NCBI GenBank assembly: GCA_021647905.1
Contig: JAKITW010000022.1
Coordinates: 1 to 34,283, forward strand
Source: Desulfobacterales bacterium
Lineage (GTDB): Bacteria; Desulfobacterota; Desulfobulbia; Desulfobulbales; BM004
Length of the DNA stretch: 34,283 bases
Direction: 5' to 3'
Part shown: one piece after another, positions 1-28,534 of the stretch
Numbering within the stretch: position 1 is the stretch's first letter
Layout of the letters: each line of letters begins with the position of its first letter
The notes under the pieces: generated by a model
Database searches by the model: none
What the model saw: only the letters and a program-made list of their open reading frames with translations
What the model was told of the DNA's origin: nothing
Program-made: the position numbers and the translations under genes

Positions 1-30
1 CAGGGGACAAGGCAGAGAGGGCCGAGGGTT

Positions 31-198
31 GATGACAGAGGACTGAGGACAGAGGACTGAGGGCTGAGGACTGAGGACCGAGGACTGAGGACAGAAGACA
101 GAAGACAGAGGGCTGAGGACTGAGGACTGAGGACTGAGGGCTGAGGACAGAAGACAGAAGACTGAGGACTGAGGACTGAGGACTGAGGACAAAAGACA
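31..198. repeat. Tandem heptamer array, about 24 units
   Basis: Twenty-four consecutive 7-bp units of the form GAGGACT, with variants GAGGACA, GAAGACA, GAGGGCT, GAGGACC, GATGACA and a final AAAGACA. The phase is kept from 31 to 198 without a slip. The array ends 23 bp from the stop codon of the histidine kinase read on the minus strand, so it lies just 3' of that gene. Heptameric short tandem repeats of this kind are known in many bacterial intergenic regions and vary in copy number. No coding role is evident here. Confidence 0.95.
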
Positions 199-221
199 AT
201 AACTGATAAGAAAAACAAGAA

Positions 222-4450: not shown

Positions 4451-5323
4451 TTACTCGATGGTAGAAAGAAGATCAGGATTCTTCACGAGGTTTCTTACAC
4501 CGTGTGCATGATCTTCTTTGAAATCATTGCCTTTACACCAGTCTCCAACAGTGTTGATATTGACTTTGGCAACGTGTGGCCGAACCGACCAAGTAACCTG
4601 AAAAGGGGAGCCTTTTTCGTTGTAACCGGGGCCTGTGGTAGAGCCTTCGAATTCGACCGGAGTACCTGTGTTGCTGGGGATAGCAGTAGCCTGGTACAGG
4701 CCGCCAACTTTTTCATAGTCGGCCAGTTTTCCGAAATCGAGCGCATTGTCATCGTTCACAAGTACGTATACTTGAGTTTCAACGCGCAGTTGCGGGTTAT
4801 TAATGGATTCGCTCAGGCAAGAACCCAGAGTCGGACCAGGTGTAACTTGAGCAGTGCTGTAAACGTAATGAACCTCAATTGTATCACCTGGCTCCAGATC
4901 GCCATGGGCGCTTGGACAGGCGTTATGGGCAACTGGTGCGAGTTCAGAGTGGCTGAGAGTACCGGAATATTTGTAACCGCTACCAAAACCTTCACCGTTT
5001 CCGTTACCGGCATAAACCGAGAAGTCTTTGGCTTTGTGTTCGGCGCTTTCGTGGAAGTGGATGTTACACAGATTCATTTGTGTGGAAGCGGGCGCGCGGC
5101 CAAAAATACGCGCGTTGTTTCCGGCCTTGGAATCAATATCACGCGGTGTTTGTGGACCGAATCCTTTACCTTCCGTGTTTTTGGCAAGAGCCTCGCGTTG
5201 CGAGGCAATAACTTTGTCAGAAACCGCAGCGTGCTTACCGTGCGTTTCGCCACCGTGATCAGAGGCAAACGCCGGAGCCACCAAAAGCGCTGATGTTGCT
5301 ATTGCAACTACAACTTTTTTCAT
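4451..5323 (-). CDS. Periplasmic delta-class carbonic anhydrase
   Basis: Predicted secreted zinc enzyme of 290 aa that interconverts CO2 and bicarbonate. A Sec signal peptide begins MKKVVVAIATSALL and is probably cut after APAFA (residue 20). The HxH pair His89/His91 in CNIHFHESAEH and His152 in IEVHYVYST match the HxH...H zinc-ligand layout of alpha/delta carbonic anhydrases. The blocks around Cys86, Cys136 and Cys169 and PQLRVETQVYVLVND fit bacterial delta-class homologues as I recall them. The start is the ATG at 5323 with GGGGAG upstream; a longer frame to 5386 would bury the signal peptide. Its A/T-richer codon use differs from its neighbours, and with its private promoter, operator and terminators this suggests a transferred unit. 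Confidence 0.85.
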   Translation of the reverse strand: MKKVVVAIATSALLVAPAFASDHGGETHGKHAAVSDKVIASQREALAKNTEGKGFGPQTPRDIDSKAGNNARIFGRAPASTQMNLCNIHFHESAEHKAKDFSVYAGNGNGEGFGSGYKYSGTLSHSELAPVAHNACPSAHGDLEPGDTIEVHYVYSTAQVTPGPTLGSCLSESINNPQLRVETQVYVLVNDDNALDFGKLADYEKVGGLYQATAIPSNTGTPVEFEGSTTGPGYNEKGSPFQVTWSVRPHVAKVNINTVGDWCKGNDFKEDHAHGVRNLVKNPDLLSTIE

Positions 5324-5354
5324 AATAATCTCCCCATAATAAATTAGGTAATTA

Positions 5355-5459
5355 TGATGAACTCGTAACAACCCGAAAGGCTTCAAATGCCACCCAATAA
5401 AATCAACAAGTTACAAGACGAATCACGTCCGTCGAGCGGGTTGTTGCGAGACCGACAAT
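5355..5459 (-). mobile_element. MITE-like element, copy A
   Basis: 105-bp segment identical at 104 of 105 positions to the reverse complement of 21711-21815. The ends carry imperfect inverted repeats (CTCGCAACAAC at one end, CTCGTAACAAC at the other). It is flanked by ATAATT on both sides, a likely target-site duplication. It lies between the predicted promoter and the start codon of the carbonic anhydrase, so it would be transcribed as part of that gene's 5' leader. No transposase is encoded. Confidence 0.85.
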
Positions 5460-5492
5460 TATGTCCAGACCAAAATAGAAAAAACGCCAGCC

Positions 5493-5914: not shown

Positions 5915-6172
5915 GGCCCTTCTCAATGGGTAACCGTTCACCGGGGGTACGGATTTATGGTAATCTCATGCCCGTAAGCGTTCACCAGTGGCTTAGATTC
6001 GTTCATTTGGGACTGCGAAGCATACTGGTGCTATTCGAGCAGGCCAGGTAAGCGAGGCACGAGACTCCGAAATGGGCGAAGATGAGGTGCTGGTGAACGC
6101 TTACCTCAATGGAGCGGCCGTTGGTAGAAGAAGACCCCTTTCCCGACAGGAGGAGGTTTACTGAATGTTTAC
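5915..6172 (+). repeat. 75-bp repeat, copy 1, interrupted by insertion
   Basis: The parts 5915-5929 and 6113-6172 together match 18290-18364 apart from a few bases near the AGGAGG stretch. The middle (5930-6112) is an inserted element plus one copy of its 8-bp target duplication. Both copies have the same orientation and lie about 12.2 kb apart, at the two ends of the transporter block. The repeat contains an AGGAGG-like stretch; its nature is unknown. Confidence 0.85.
5930..6104. mobile_element. IS66-like non-autonomous element, 175 bp
   Basis: Left end GTAACCGTTCACC, right end the complement of GTAAGCGTTCACC. They are flanked by the 8-bp direct repeat CTCAATGG at 5922-5929 and 6105-6112. 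The homologous site at 18297-18304 has CTCAATGG once with no insert, an empty site that supports transposition. GTAA termini and 8-bp duplications are the hallmark of the IS66 family. A second GTAAGCGTTCACCAG lies inside at 5974-5988 and pairs perfectly with the right end (6090-6104), so most of the element can fold into one long imperfect hairpin. No transposase is encoded. Confidence 0.85.
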
Positions 6173-18289: not shown

Positions 18290-18364
18290 GGCCCTTCTCA
18301 ATGGAGCGGCCGTTGGTAGAAGAAGACCCCTTTCCCGACAGGAGGGGGGGTACTGAATGTTTAC
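18290..18364 (+). repeat. 75-bp repeat, copy 2, uninterrupted
   Basis: Match of 5915-5929 joined to 6113-6172, without the 175-bp insertion. It lies in the gap between two convergent genes. Near its left edge AACGGCC and GGCCGTT form an inverted repeat. It marks the far end of the 12-kb block whose near end carries copy 1. Confidence 0.85.
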
Positions 18365-20131: not shown

Positions 20132-21583
20132 ATGGGTGAAACAATGGACCTGGAAAGGGTCGTTGCCCTGCTGGAAAAGGAGGTGGCCGGCTACCGGGTG
20201 CCGGTGGTGGACCTGATCGCGACCCAGACCAGGGATCCTTTCCGGGTGCTGACAGCCACCATTCTCTCGGCCCGGACCCGGGACGAGGTCACGGCCCGGG
20301 CCGCGGCCCGGCTCTTTGCCCGGGCGCCGGATGTGGAGGGCCTGGCCCGGCTTCAAGAGGGGGAGATCGCCGCTCTCATCCATCCGGTGGGGTTCTTTCG
20401 CAGCAAGGCCTCCTACCTGGCCCGGCTGCCCGCGGCCCTGGCCCGGTTCGGCAACCAGGTTCCCGGGGAGATCGATTCCCTGCTGACCCTGCCGGGGGTG
20501 GGCCGCAAGACCGCCAATCTGGTGAAGGCCGTGGCCTTTAACCAGCCGGCCATCTGCGTTGACACCCATGTCCACCGGATCATGAATATCTGGGGTTATG
20601 TAGATACCAAAAACCCGCTGGCCACCGAGATGGCCCTGAGAAAAAAACTGCCGCGCAAGTACTGGATCCGGATCAACAGCCTGCTGGTGGCATTCGGCCA
20701 GGGGACCTGCCGGCCGGTCCGGCCCCACTGCGACCGCTGCGTGATCAGCCGTCTCTGTCCCGGGATCGGGGTCAGCCCGCGCCGGCTTATGTCCGGGAAA
20801 AGGGCAAAGGAGGAAAACAGGATGAAAAAACTCATCTCCTGGAACGTAAACGGCATCCGGGCCCTGGAAAAAAAGGGGTTTATCGATCTGCTGGCCGAGC
20901 TTGATCCGGATATTCTCGGACTGCAGGAGACCAGGGCCCAGCCCGGCCAGTTGGCCGATTCCCTGAAGAACATCCCCGGCTATACCTCCTATTGGGCCAG
21001 CGCGGCGAAAAAGGGCTACTCCGGGGTGGCGGTTTACACCCGGATCGAGCCGCTTTCGGTGATCGTTGGGCTCGGTATCCCGGAATATGACCGGGAGGGC
21101 CGGGTGCTGACCCTGGAGTTTGCCGACTTTTTTCTGATCAACGCCTACTTTCCCAACGCCCGGCCCGGCCTGAAACGGATCGACTACAAGCTTGCCTTTA
21201 ACCGCGAGCTGAAAACATTTGCCGACCGGCTGGGTGAGAAGAAAGCCGTGCTGATCTGCGGCGACTTCAACGTAGCCCACCGGCCCATTGACCTGGCCAA
21301 CCCCGAGGCCAACGAGGAAAATCCCGGTTATTCGGCCCAAGAGCGGGCCTGGATGGATGATTTTCTAGAACACGGTTACTGCGACACCTTCCGCAAGTTC
21401 AACCGGGAACCGGGCCAATACACCTGGTGGTCCTTTCGTTTCAATGCCCGGGCCCGGAACATCGGCTGGCGGATCGATTACTTCTGCGTGGACCGGGCCG
21501 GCGCGGACCGGGTCAAGGGGGCGGCAATCCTGAACGGGATCATGGGCTCGGACCACTGCCCGATCAGTCTCGATTTTGTTTGA
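20132..21583 (+). CDS. Endonuclease III - exonuclease III fusion (Nth-Xth)
   Basis: 483-aa base-excision-repair fusion. Residues 1-215 are an endonuclease III: HhH motif LPGVGRKTAN with catalytic Lys126, Asp144 in VDTHVHRI 18 residues later as in E. coli Nth, and a complete [4Fe-4S] motif C-x6-C-x2-C-x5-C (Cys193, 200, 203, 209). Residues 231-483 are an ExoIII-type AP endonuclease with SWNVNGIRA, LQETRAQ, CGDFNVAH and GSDHCPI. Glycosylase/lyase and AP endonuclease act in successive steps, so fusion makes sense. There is no stop between them. The junction carries AAAGGAGG 8 bp before an in-frame ATG (20822), so free Xth may also be made. The N-terminal start (20132 or 20144) lacks a good ribosome binding site. 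Confidence 0.92.
   Translation: MGETMDLERVVALLEKEVAGYRVPVVDLIATQTRDPFRVLTATILSARTRDEVTARAAARLFARAPDVEGLARLQEGEIAALIHPVGFFRSKASYLARLPAALARFGNQVPGEIDSLLTLPGVGRKTANLVKAVAFNQPAICVDTHVHRIMNIWGYVDTKNPLATEMALRKKLPRKYWIRINSLLVAFGQGTCRPVRPHCDRCVISRLCPGIGVSPRRLMSGKRAKEENRMKKLISWNVNGIRALEKKGFIDLLAELDPDILGLQETRAQPGQLADSLKNIPGYTSYWASAAKKGYSGVAVYTRIEPLSVIVGLGIPEYDREGRVLTLEFADFFLINAYFPNARPGLKRIDYKLAFNRELKTFADRLGEKKAVLICGDFNVAHRPIDLANPEANEENPGYSAQERAWMDDFLEHGYCDTFRKFNREPGQYTWWSFRFNARARNIGWRIDYFCVDRAGADRVKGAAILNGIMGSDHCPISLDFV
20806..20824 (+). promoter_or_regulatory. Internal ribosome binding site and start inside the Nth-Xth fusion
   Basis: AAAGGAGG at 20806-20813 precedes an in-frame ATG at 20822-20824 that begins MKKLISWNVNGIRA, the normal start of a stand-alone ExoIII. 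This is what a separate xth gene would look like, yet the upstream nth frame runs through it without a stop. Confidence 0.75.
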
Positions 21584-21600: not shown

Positions 21601-21865
21601 ATTTACCGCAGAGGGCGCGGAGGTTCGCAGGGGAAAAGAGAATGATGAATGTCCAATATCCAATGTCGAATGTAGAAATTTTCTTCTATTTCTAAATTCT
21701 ACGGTTCAATATTGTCGGTCTCGCAACAACTCGCTCGACGGACGTGATTCGTCTTGTAACTTGTTGATTTTATTGGGTGGCATTTGAAGCCTTTCGGGTT
21801 GTTACGAGTTCATCAATATTCTACAGTTCGATATTCTCGGTAAAAAAACATTCTCTGCGGTAAAT
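21601..21865. repeat. 13-bp inverted repeat flanking repeat-rich spacer
   Basis: ATTTACCGCAGAG (21601-21613) and its exact complement CTCTGCGGTAAAT (21853-21865) enclose a spacer with short near-repeats (AATGTCCAATATCCAATG) and MITE copy B. The 303-bp gap between the repair fusion and lgt holds no gene. Confidence 0.6.
21711..21815 (+). mobile_element. MITE-like element, copy B
   Basis: 105 bp, 104 identical to copy A in reverse orientation. Imperfect terminal inverted repeats of 17 bp agree at 12 positions, including CTCG and AACAAC. AATATT flanks it on both sides, a likely target-site duplication. It lies between two genes and disrupts nothing visible. Confidence 0.87.
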
Positions 21866-21886: not shown

Positions 21887-22678
21887 TCAGGTTCGACGTT
21901 CCCGGCAGCAGAGAAGGATCAGCAACCCGGCGCCGATCATCAGGCTGCTCAGGAGCTGGCCCATGGTGAGGTGGAACCAGATAAAACCGAGCTGGGCGTC
22001 CGGTTCCCGGAACAGCTCGGCCAGGCAGCGGAAAATGCCGTAGAGGACCAGAAAGGCGCCGAGCATGGTGCCGGCCGGCCAGTTGCGACGATGCTGGACC
22101 GACTTGAGGGTCCAGAGGATGACAAAGAGCAGAAACCCCGCCAGGAAAAACTCGTAGAGCTGGGACGGGTGCCGGGGCCGGGGACCGCCCTGGGGAAAGA
22201 TCATGGCCCAGGGCAGGTCGCTGACCCGGCCGTACAGTTCGCCGTTGATAAAGTTGCCCAGCCGGCCCAACCCCAGGCCGATGGGCACGGTGACCACATA
22301 GAGGTCAGCGGTCCGGAGAAAGCCGAGCCCATGGCGGCGGCAGTAGAAAAAACCAGCCAGGACAAGGCCCAGCAGGGCGCCGTGAAAGGACATCCCGCCC
22401 TGCCAGGTGGCGAATATCTCCAGGGGGTGGCGCAGAAAATAGCCCGGGCTGTAGAACAGGACATAACCGAGCCGGCCACCGATGATCAGGCTGACCATCA
22501 GGACCAGGTTGAGATTATCGAAATAGTCGGCCAGGCGGGCGATCCTGTACCGGTTTATCTGGTACCGGACCAGCAACACGCTGGCCGTAAAACCGAGCAC
22601 ATACATCAGCCCGTACCAGCGGACCTGGAGCGGACCCAGGCTGAAGATCACCGGATCGATGTCAGGATAGGCGATCAT
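21887..22678 (-). CDS. lgt: Prolipoprotein diacylglyceryl transferase
   Basis: 263-aa inner-membrane enzyme that transfers diacylglycerol from phosphatidylglycerol to the lipobox Cys of prolipoproteins, the first step of lipoprotein maturation. Visible marks: [12 protein letters not shown] near the N-terminus, [12 protein letters not shown] (the conserved His region), the Lgt signature [14 protein letters not shown] and RHPSQLYE. Length is normal for the family. Its start ATG overlaps the mnmG stop by 4 bp, so the two genes are translationally coupled, with lgt last in the trkA-trkH-mnmG-lgt run. Confidence 0.96.
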
Positions 22679-27551: not shown

Positions 27552-27864
27552 AAAACACCTCGCAGGGAGAGTAACCAGCATGGCTGGACCATATTTGCCC
27601 AGCCGCAACGAAACAATGAATAAAAGACGTCACTCCGGCATGGCAAGGCCTCCGCTTGGTGACGACTTCCATATAAAACGCCCGTTGCAACAGGCTGCCG
27701 GCCGCTGCGGTCCTTAAACGGGCACCACATTGCCGGCACCCGCAATATCAGGCGGAACCGCAACACCTTACAGCTGATCGGCAGGCAAAGGGCCCGGTTT
27801 GTTTGGCGGCATTATATATGGCAGTGGTTATATTTGCAAATCAAGCATGATCGCCGGGCCGGGC
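27552..27864. other. Intergenic region upstream of trkA
   Basis: 313 bp between fmdB (ending at 27865) and trkA. It holds a site AACCAGC-ATG-GCTGGAC at 27573 and a 7-bp inverted repeat GCCCGTT/AACGGGC flanking a GC-rich stretch near 27680-27722. No gene and no strong promoter were seen. Confidence 0.5.
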
Positions 27865-28179: not shown

Positions 28180-28201
28180 TGTTTTCCTCTCCGGTTTAAG
28201 G

Positions 28202-28305
28202 ATTGTCGGTCTCGCAACAACCGCGAGACGGACATGACTAATGTTGTAACTTGTTGATTTTATTCGGTGGCATTTGAAACTTTCGGGTTTTTTACGAGTT
28301 CATCA
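28202..28305 (+). mobile_element. MITE-like element, copy C
   Basis: 104-bp copy of the family, more divergent from A and B than from D (one difference). It has the GTCTCGC...GCGAGAC hairpin near the left end. It is preceded by AAGGATT. Tandem with copy D at a 107-bp period; the junction also reads AAGGATT. Confidence 0.85.
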
Positions 28306-28308
28306 AGG

Positions 28309-28412
28309 ATTGTCGGTCTCGCAACAACCGCGAGACGGACGTGACTAATGTTGTAACTTGTTGATTTTATTCGGTGGCATTTGAAACTTTCGGGTTTTTT
28401 ACGAGTTCATCA
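28309..28412 (+). mobile_element. MITE-like element, copy D
   Basis: 104 bp, one difference from copy C, and followed by AAGGATT as is copy C. AAGGATT is thus found before, between and after the pair, as expected if one unit with its target duplication was itself duplicated. Confidence 0.85.
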
Positions 28413-28534
28413 AGGATTCCCCGGACCGGTGACGGCCAACGGACCCCAGCCATGCTGGTTTATTTGTAAGCGCGCGCAGGAGGCAACCCAGAGTCCGGCC
28501 GGGCCTGCCCCGTGAGTGGTTACGGTTTATTTGT

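Follow-up and report, generated by a model that had tools for sequence, protein, structure and literature searches.

A recently expanded family of 101-bp MITE-like elements with target duplications and tandem arrays in a Desulfobacterales genome

The window analyzed here, a stretch of 34,283 nucleotides corresponding to contig 22 of a 2.73 Mb, 118-contig Desulfobacterales genome, contains all four copies of a short repeat that were claimed in an initial annotation of this DNA. Copy A (5356-5456, − strand, 101 bp) lies between two copies of ATAATT (AATTAT on the + strand), at 5350-5355 on its right-end side and 5457-5462 on its left-end side; a delta carbonic anhydrase gene (4451-5323, − strand) has its start codon 32 bp downstream. 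Copy B (21714-21814, + strand, 101 bp) is flanked by AATATT at 21708-21713 (left) and 21815-21820 (right) and sits between convergent genes, an HhH-GPD/Exo_endo_phos ORF ending at 21583 and LGT at 21887-22678. The limits of both copies are set by their target duplications. Copies C (28205-28304) and D (28312-28411), each 100 bp on the + strand and differing from one another at one position, are units 1 and 2 of a tandem pair located upstream of a − strand zinc-ribbon (Zn_ribbon_8) gene. The heptamer AAGGATT occurs as the target duplication to the left of C (28198-28204) and to the right of D (28412-28418), and once between them (28305-28311) as a copy common to both units, such that 28205-28411 is a single locus of the form AAGGATT-unit-AAGGATT-unit-AAGGATT.

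As delimited by these duplications, the unit starts with GTCGG and ends with CATC; the limits drawn initially identified the right loci but were 1-4 bp wider. The flanking duplication reported for each locus (ATAATT, AATATT, AAGGATT) is present, and the reading of the copies as independent insertions holds for three loci but not for four, as C and D constitute one tandem locus with a common AAGGATT. Intergenic position is likewise borne out, for the three window loci only; in a gene-avoidance test based on open frames across joined flanks, 89% of control positions fell in frames of >100 codons. The proposed division into two subfamilies describes the window, where A/B and C/D are ~85% identical, but more than two subfamilies are present genome-wide.

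The unit has terminal inverted repeats that are present but imperfect: in the family consensus, 15/20 outer bases of the left repeat (21714-21733, + strand, in copy B) equal those of the right end (21795-21814, − strand; GATGAACTCGTAACAACCCG read inward). The element ends can be written as GTCGGTCTCGYAAMAA / TTKTTACGARNNCATC, with a retained core of CTCGYAAMAA. The left end additionally contains an internal inverted repeat (21714-21743, + strand), GTCGGTCTCG facing CGAGACGGAC; this facing pair is found in about half of the distinct variants, with CTCGACGGAC instead in copies A and B. Length is 101 or 100 bp in 110 of 116 copies, too small for a transposase gene, and a few copies are longer (130-144 bp).

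A genome-wide search for the element, put forward in the initial annotation as a check, recovered 174 matches to the left end (17 bp) and 155 to the right end at ≤2 mismatches; the same end patterns reversed gave no matches in 2.73 Mb, and the contrast with the 174 left-end matches excludes chance. A right end was listed for 66 of the first 100 left ends listed, in 65 of these 66 exactly 84 bp away. The family thus comprises roughly 155-174 recognizable copies, and maybe more, amounting to ~0.6% of the genome or one copy in every ~16 kb. Flanks were read for 116 distinct copies; 102 of them are exactly 101 bp long, and 45 of these 102 are identical to the consensus; this degree of identity indicates a recent burst of the family. 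The diverged subfamilies, which differ mainly at positions 19, 22-23, 34-35, 38, 40, 78, and 93-94, are older. Orientation is balanced (47 + and 42 −) among 89 units sampled from 1.02 Mb of contigs that were taken complete or almost complete (37% of the genome); this set of units was partly picked for duplications and was kept out of the duplication statistics.

Flanking duplications, on which the initial annotation had staked the transposon reading, extend to copies beyond the window. An exact duplication is observed at 71 of 87 non-tandem copies, whereas shuffling the right flanks among copies yields a mean of 2.3 six-base matches, against 50 six-base and 19 seven-base duplications observed. 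Both of the lengths considered initially, 6 and 7 bp, are therefore seen, but length is not fixed, with two further duplications of 8 bp. The first base of the duplication is A in 68 of 71 cases and the last bases are TT in 70 of 71, while C or T precedes it in 61 of 71 and G or A follows it in 50 of 71; the preferred target is thus Y-A-W...T-T-R, which is roughly palindromic. One insertion (L093) can be compared with a paralogous empty site, as it sits inside a different, ~105-bp repeat whose other copies (L239, 94% identical over 106 bp; L216, three times; L013) supply the uninterrupted site. ATAGTT occurs once in the closest empty copy, L239, and twice at the filled L093 site, so that a precise insertion is directly visible. 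This ~105-bp third repeat, which contains CCAGCATGGCTGG and ends near TATGAAAGTC, is itself multi-copy and intergenic, and occurs in the window at 27573-27680 and 28446-28462.

Tandem arrangement is not confined to copies C and D. The fetched copies include 11 tandem pairs, all head to tail, in which the spacer is the right-hand duplication; most have an identical hexamer or heptamer at all three sides and ≤1 difference between units. In the L034 pair, AAATTT occurs three times although the units differ at 9 positions, suggesting that the already duplicated target was hit a second time and that the pair did not arise by recent duplication. The left flank differs in L105, L107 (first pair), and L211, reflecting later recombination or decay. 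Since the unit-unit junction, ...CATC-A...TT-GTCGG..., matches the preferred target in form, re-targeting of an occupied site would be a plausible step in the formation of these arrays.

Other repeats are present alongside the 101-bp family. A second repeat family, with ends GTAA...TTAC of IS66-like appearance, ranges from 65 to ~280 bp in many copies, including pieces in the window at 6105-6172 and 18297-18364. This repeat is inserted in approximately ten 101-bp elements of several subfamilies, each time at almost the same place, after base ~26 within the left-end hairpin (in this genome, L171, L173, L176, L177, L158, L179, and L181-L184); in L182, an 8-bp duplication, CACGAGAC, flanks the complete 65-bp insert. 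It is likely that this insertion hotspot is real. The contig start (window 1-210) is a degenerate tandem array of 7-bp units (GGACTGA/GGACAGA), and an intergenic direct duplication of 62 bp, 90% identical and 108 bp apart, occupies 1789-1850 and 1897-1958.

The 101-bp (or 100-bp) repeat is very probably a family of non-autonomous DNA transposons (MITE), as proposed initially: it is short and non-coding, with terminal inverted repeats, target duplication, dispersed near-identical copies, and precise insertion, and the end counts, the frequency of duplications, the empty site, and the lack of compensatory change all agree with this reading. Weighing against it are the imperfect match of the inverted repeats and the failure of the searches to recover an autonomous partner with matching ends. 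The family is real and unnamed, and represents an object of an ordinary kind that is unusually abundant and recent. Host function is dispensable for explaining it.

It is much less probable that the repeat is of the REP/REPIN type, mobilized by a REP-associated tyrosine transposase (RAYT, Y1_Tnp). Four Y1_Tnp proteins are encoded in the genome, the element is about as numerous as REP sequences, and a hairpin is present in its left end; however, Y1 transposition (IS200/IS605, RAYTs) makes no target duplication, and the duplications at the single copies refute the simple form of this explanation. Additionally, the unit is fixed at 101 bp, unlike a 20-40 bp palindrome or doublet, and the Y1_Tnp genes lack a flanking element. 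Equally slight is the probability of a conserved structured RNA gene or cis-regulatory RNA that has been duplicated within the genome. Copy B does fold better than shuffles (z of −3.0 and −4.9 on the two strands), but better folding is expected from inverted repeats; the interior TGTAACTTGTTGATTTTATTG is also well conserved between genomes. Against an RNA, there is no Rfam match in the window, insertions duplicate their target, and both orientations are used. Compensatory changes, named initially as the pattern that would speak for an RNA gene, gave it no support in a 33-sequence alignment: the left GTCGGTCTCG/CGAGACGGAC hairpin is kept mainly by sequence identity, with 0 pairs changed on both sides, and the two double-changed pairs in the terminal pairing do not exceed shuffles. 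Movement as a cassette by a site-specific tyrosine recombinase (of the integron attC-like or coupling-sequence type) would account for head-to-tail arrays and for a 6-8 bp spacer with short inverted motifs (TC A...TT G) resembling a crossover site, but is the least probable of these alternatives, since the 6-8 bp vary by locus yet match on both sides of each copy, a pattern that circle recombination with a fixed crossover would not give, and no cassette genes are associated.

For the MITE family, a transposase supplied in trans would bind the element ends through the conserved core and cut out or copy the element; the 3' ends (...TC-3' on the right, ...GAC-3' on the left) would be joined to a target cut before A on each strand, and gap repair would yield the duplication. 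Because right end, duplication, and left end together (...TC / A...TT / G...) resemble the target, an occupied site could be hit again, and repeated hits would produce head-to-tail arrays with a single duplication between units. The transposase may have been lost, may be absent from the assembly, or may be encoded outside recognizable ends. It is possible that copies A and C/D affect neighboring promoters; as two of the three window loci are just upstream of start codons, the burst may have changed the expression of neighboring genes.

Searches for an autonomous partner agree with the initial statement that the ends match no IS family that could be named: an IS with matching termini was looked for and not found, and the assembly, which is fragmented and in which diverged terminal inverted repeats could hide one, yielded no autonomous element bearing these ends. 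In this genome, end patterns skipping the MITE interior matched nothing but variants of the MITE and copies that a different repeat interrupts. Within the 1.02 Mb sample, where the longest repeated sequence is 1.1 kb, the only longer elements with such ends and a duplication were tandem MITEs and one dissimilar chance pair. The transposase families searched were ISNCY_1, DDE_Tnp_1, and Y1_Tnp, the first of these on account of ISDol1-group elements, which have 6-7 bp duplications. No ISNCY_1 (NF033593) transposases were found in this genome, and a 9-copy ISNCY_1 element in a relative (G055) starts with TTAGTTTCTGTCCGGAAA and has other ends. The sole DDE_Tnp_1 match in this genome is not bounded by the element's ends, and 15 matches in relatives have no matching ends nearby. 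None of the four Y1_Tnp genes in this genome is bounded by these ends. The four RAYT-like Y1_Tnp proteins (L286-L289) include three open frames of 325-347 aa (L286, L288, L289) with a C-terminal extension that is helix-turn-helix-like in appearance.

Wider searches returned the ends on short elements only, in the loci read from 258 genomes at the level of the order and 394 at that of the phylum; at L260, L261, and L284, the right end is not clear, and an obvious transposase is also absent. Among matches to the exact ends, those in viral contigs (L225-L228, L330-L332) and the majority in genome contigs (L059, L061-L071) are chance-like or reflect other elements. Plasmid and phage collections contained no match to the 101-bp element, and a literature search for the end sequences returned nothing relevant. 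A transposase of an undescribed kind, or one domesticated by the host without the ends, is an unlikely though not negligible candidate for moving the family. If such an enzyme exists, it would recognize TC/A half-sites on each strand of both donor and target, and this would account for a duplication that varies from 6 to 8 bp, for the palindromic target, and for re-insertion into the element's own junctions, as well as for the dozens of such elements in many genomes of the phylum with no visible partner IS.

Other genera and families of the order also have elements that share these ends but have diverged in their interiors, and many such elements are flanked by 6-8 bp duplications of their own. 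More distantly, sampling across the phylum located the end GATGGCTTCGTAAAAAGTC in 20 of 394 genomes, with a maximum of 73 occurrences in a single genome; the elements that bear it are again short, and their duplications include AATATT, AAACTATT, and AAGCGT. These elements are like the 101-bp family in their core (TCGYAAMAA), 6-8 bp duplications, short length, and non-coding character, but differ in their interiors and in a length of 79-207 bp, some having near-perfect inverted repeats; their putative grouping with the family is based on the terminal motif and the kind of duplication and not on similarity as a whole.

Two further matches stand apart. A 6.5-kb contig (L060; GC 48%, as compared with 59% in the window) assigned to a Verrucomicrobia MAG carries two copies that are 97-99% identical to copy B and have their own duplications, AGGATT and ATGGCTT. 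Besides the element, this contig has no match >135 bp to the fetched parts of the genome, suggesting either transfer of the element between organisms or mis-binning of the contig. In another genome of the order, the element core TTGTAACTTGTTGATTTTATTG is matched at 22/22 bases (L051:1501-1522), one base past the 3' end of a tmRNA gene (1524-1878), with the rest of the element absent; this match may reflect chance or an attachment site.

Taken together, these data describe a dense, apparently recent MITE burst that can be read straight from sequence, with a clean target consensus and tandem arrays suggesting that the same target was used again. The family also directs attention to a phylum-wide set of small mobile elements that have related ends and a transposase that has yet to be found. 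What is least ordinary about it is that units in tandem arrays share duplications, that the target resembles the junction of the element itself, and that similar ends recur phylum-wide with no transposase known for them.

In comparison with known systems, REP/REPIN sequences with RAYTs are likewise high-copy, intergenic, hairpin-bearing repeats, and Y1_Tnp genes are present here; the 101-bp family differs in its target duplications and fixed length. Partner IS families have been named for RUP and Nezha, whereas none was found for the 101-bp family. The resemblance to Correia elements, RUP, Nezha, and other bacterial MITEs lies in miniature size, high copy number, intergenic position, and movement in trans, though their ends differ from those described here; these are IS-derived elements (PMC10969869). 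Compared by description only, Chunjie, a MITE of Geobacter uraniireducens (Chen et al. 2008), differs in length and abundance, with 38 full copies of 178-235 bp (PMC10969869) as against ~155-174 copies of 100-101 bp here. Like the 101-bp family, Chunjie is a short, non-coding element that has been active recently; it has terminal inverted repeats and direct repeats, lies mostly between genes, and is present in tens of copies (PMC10969869).
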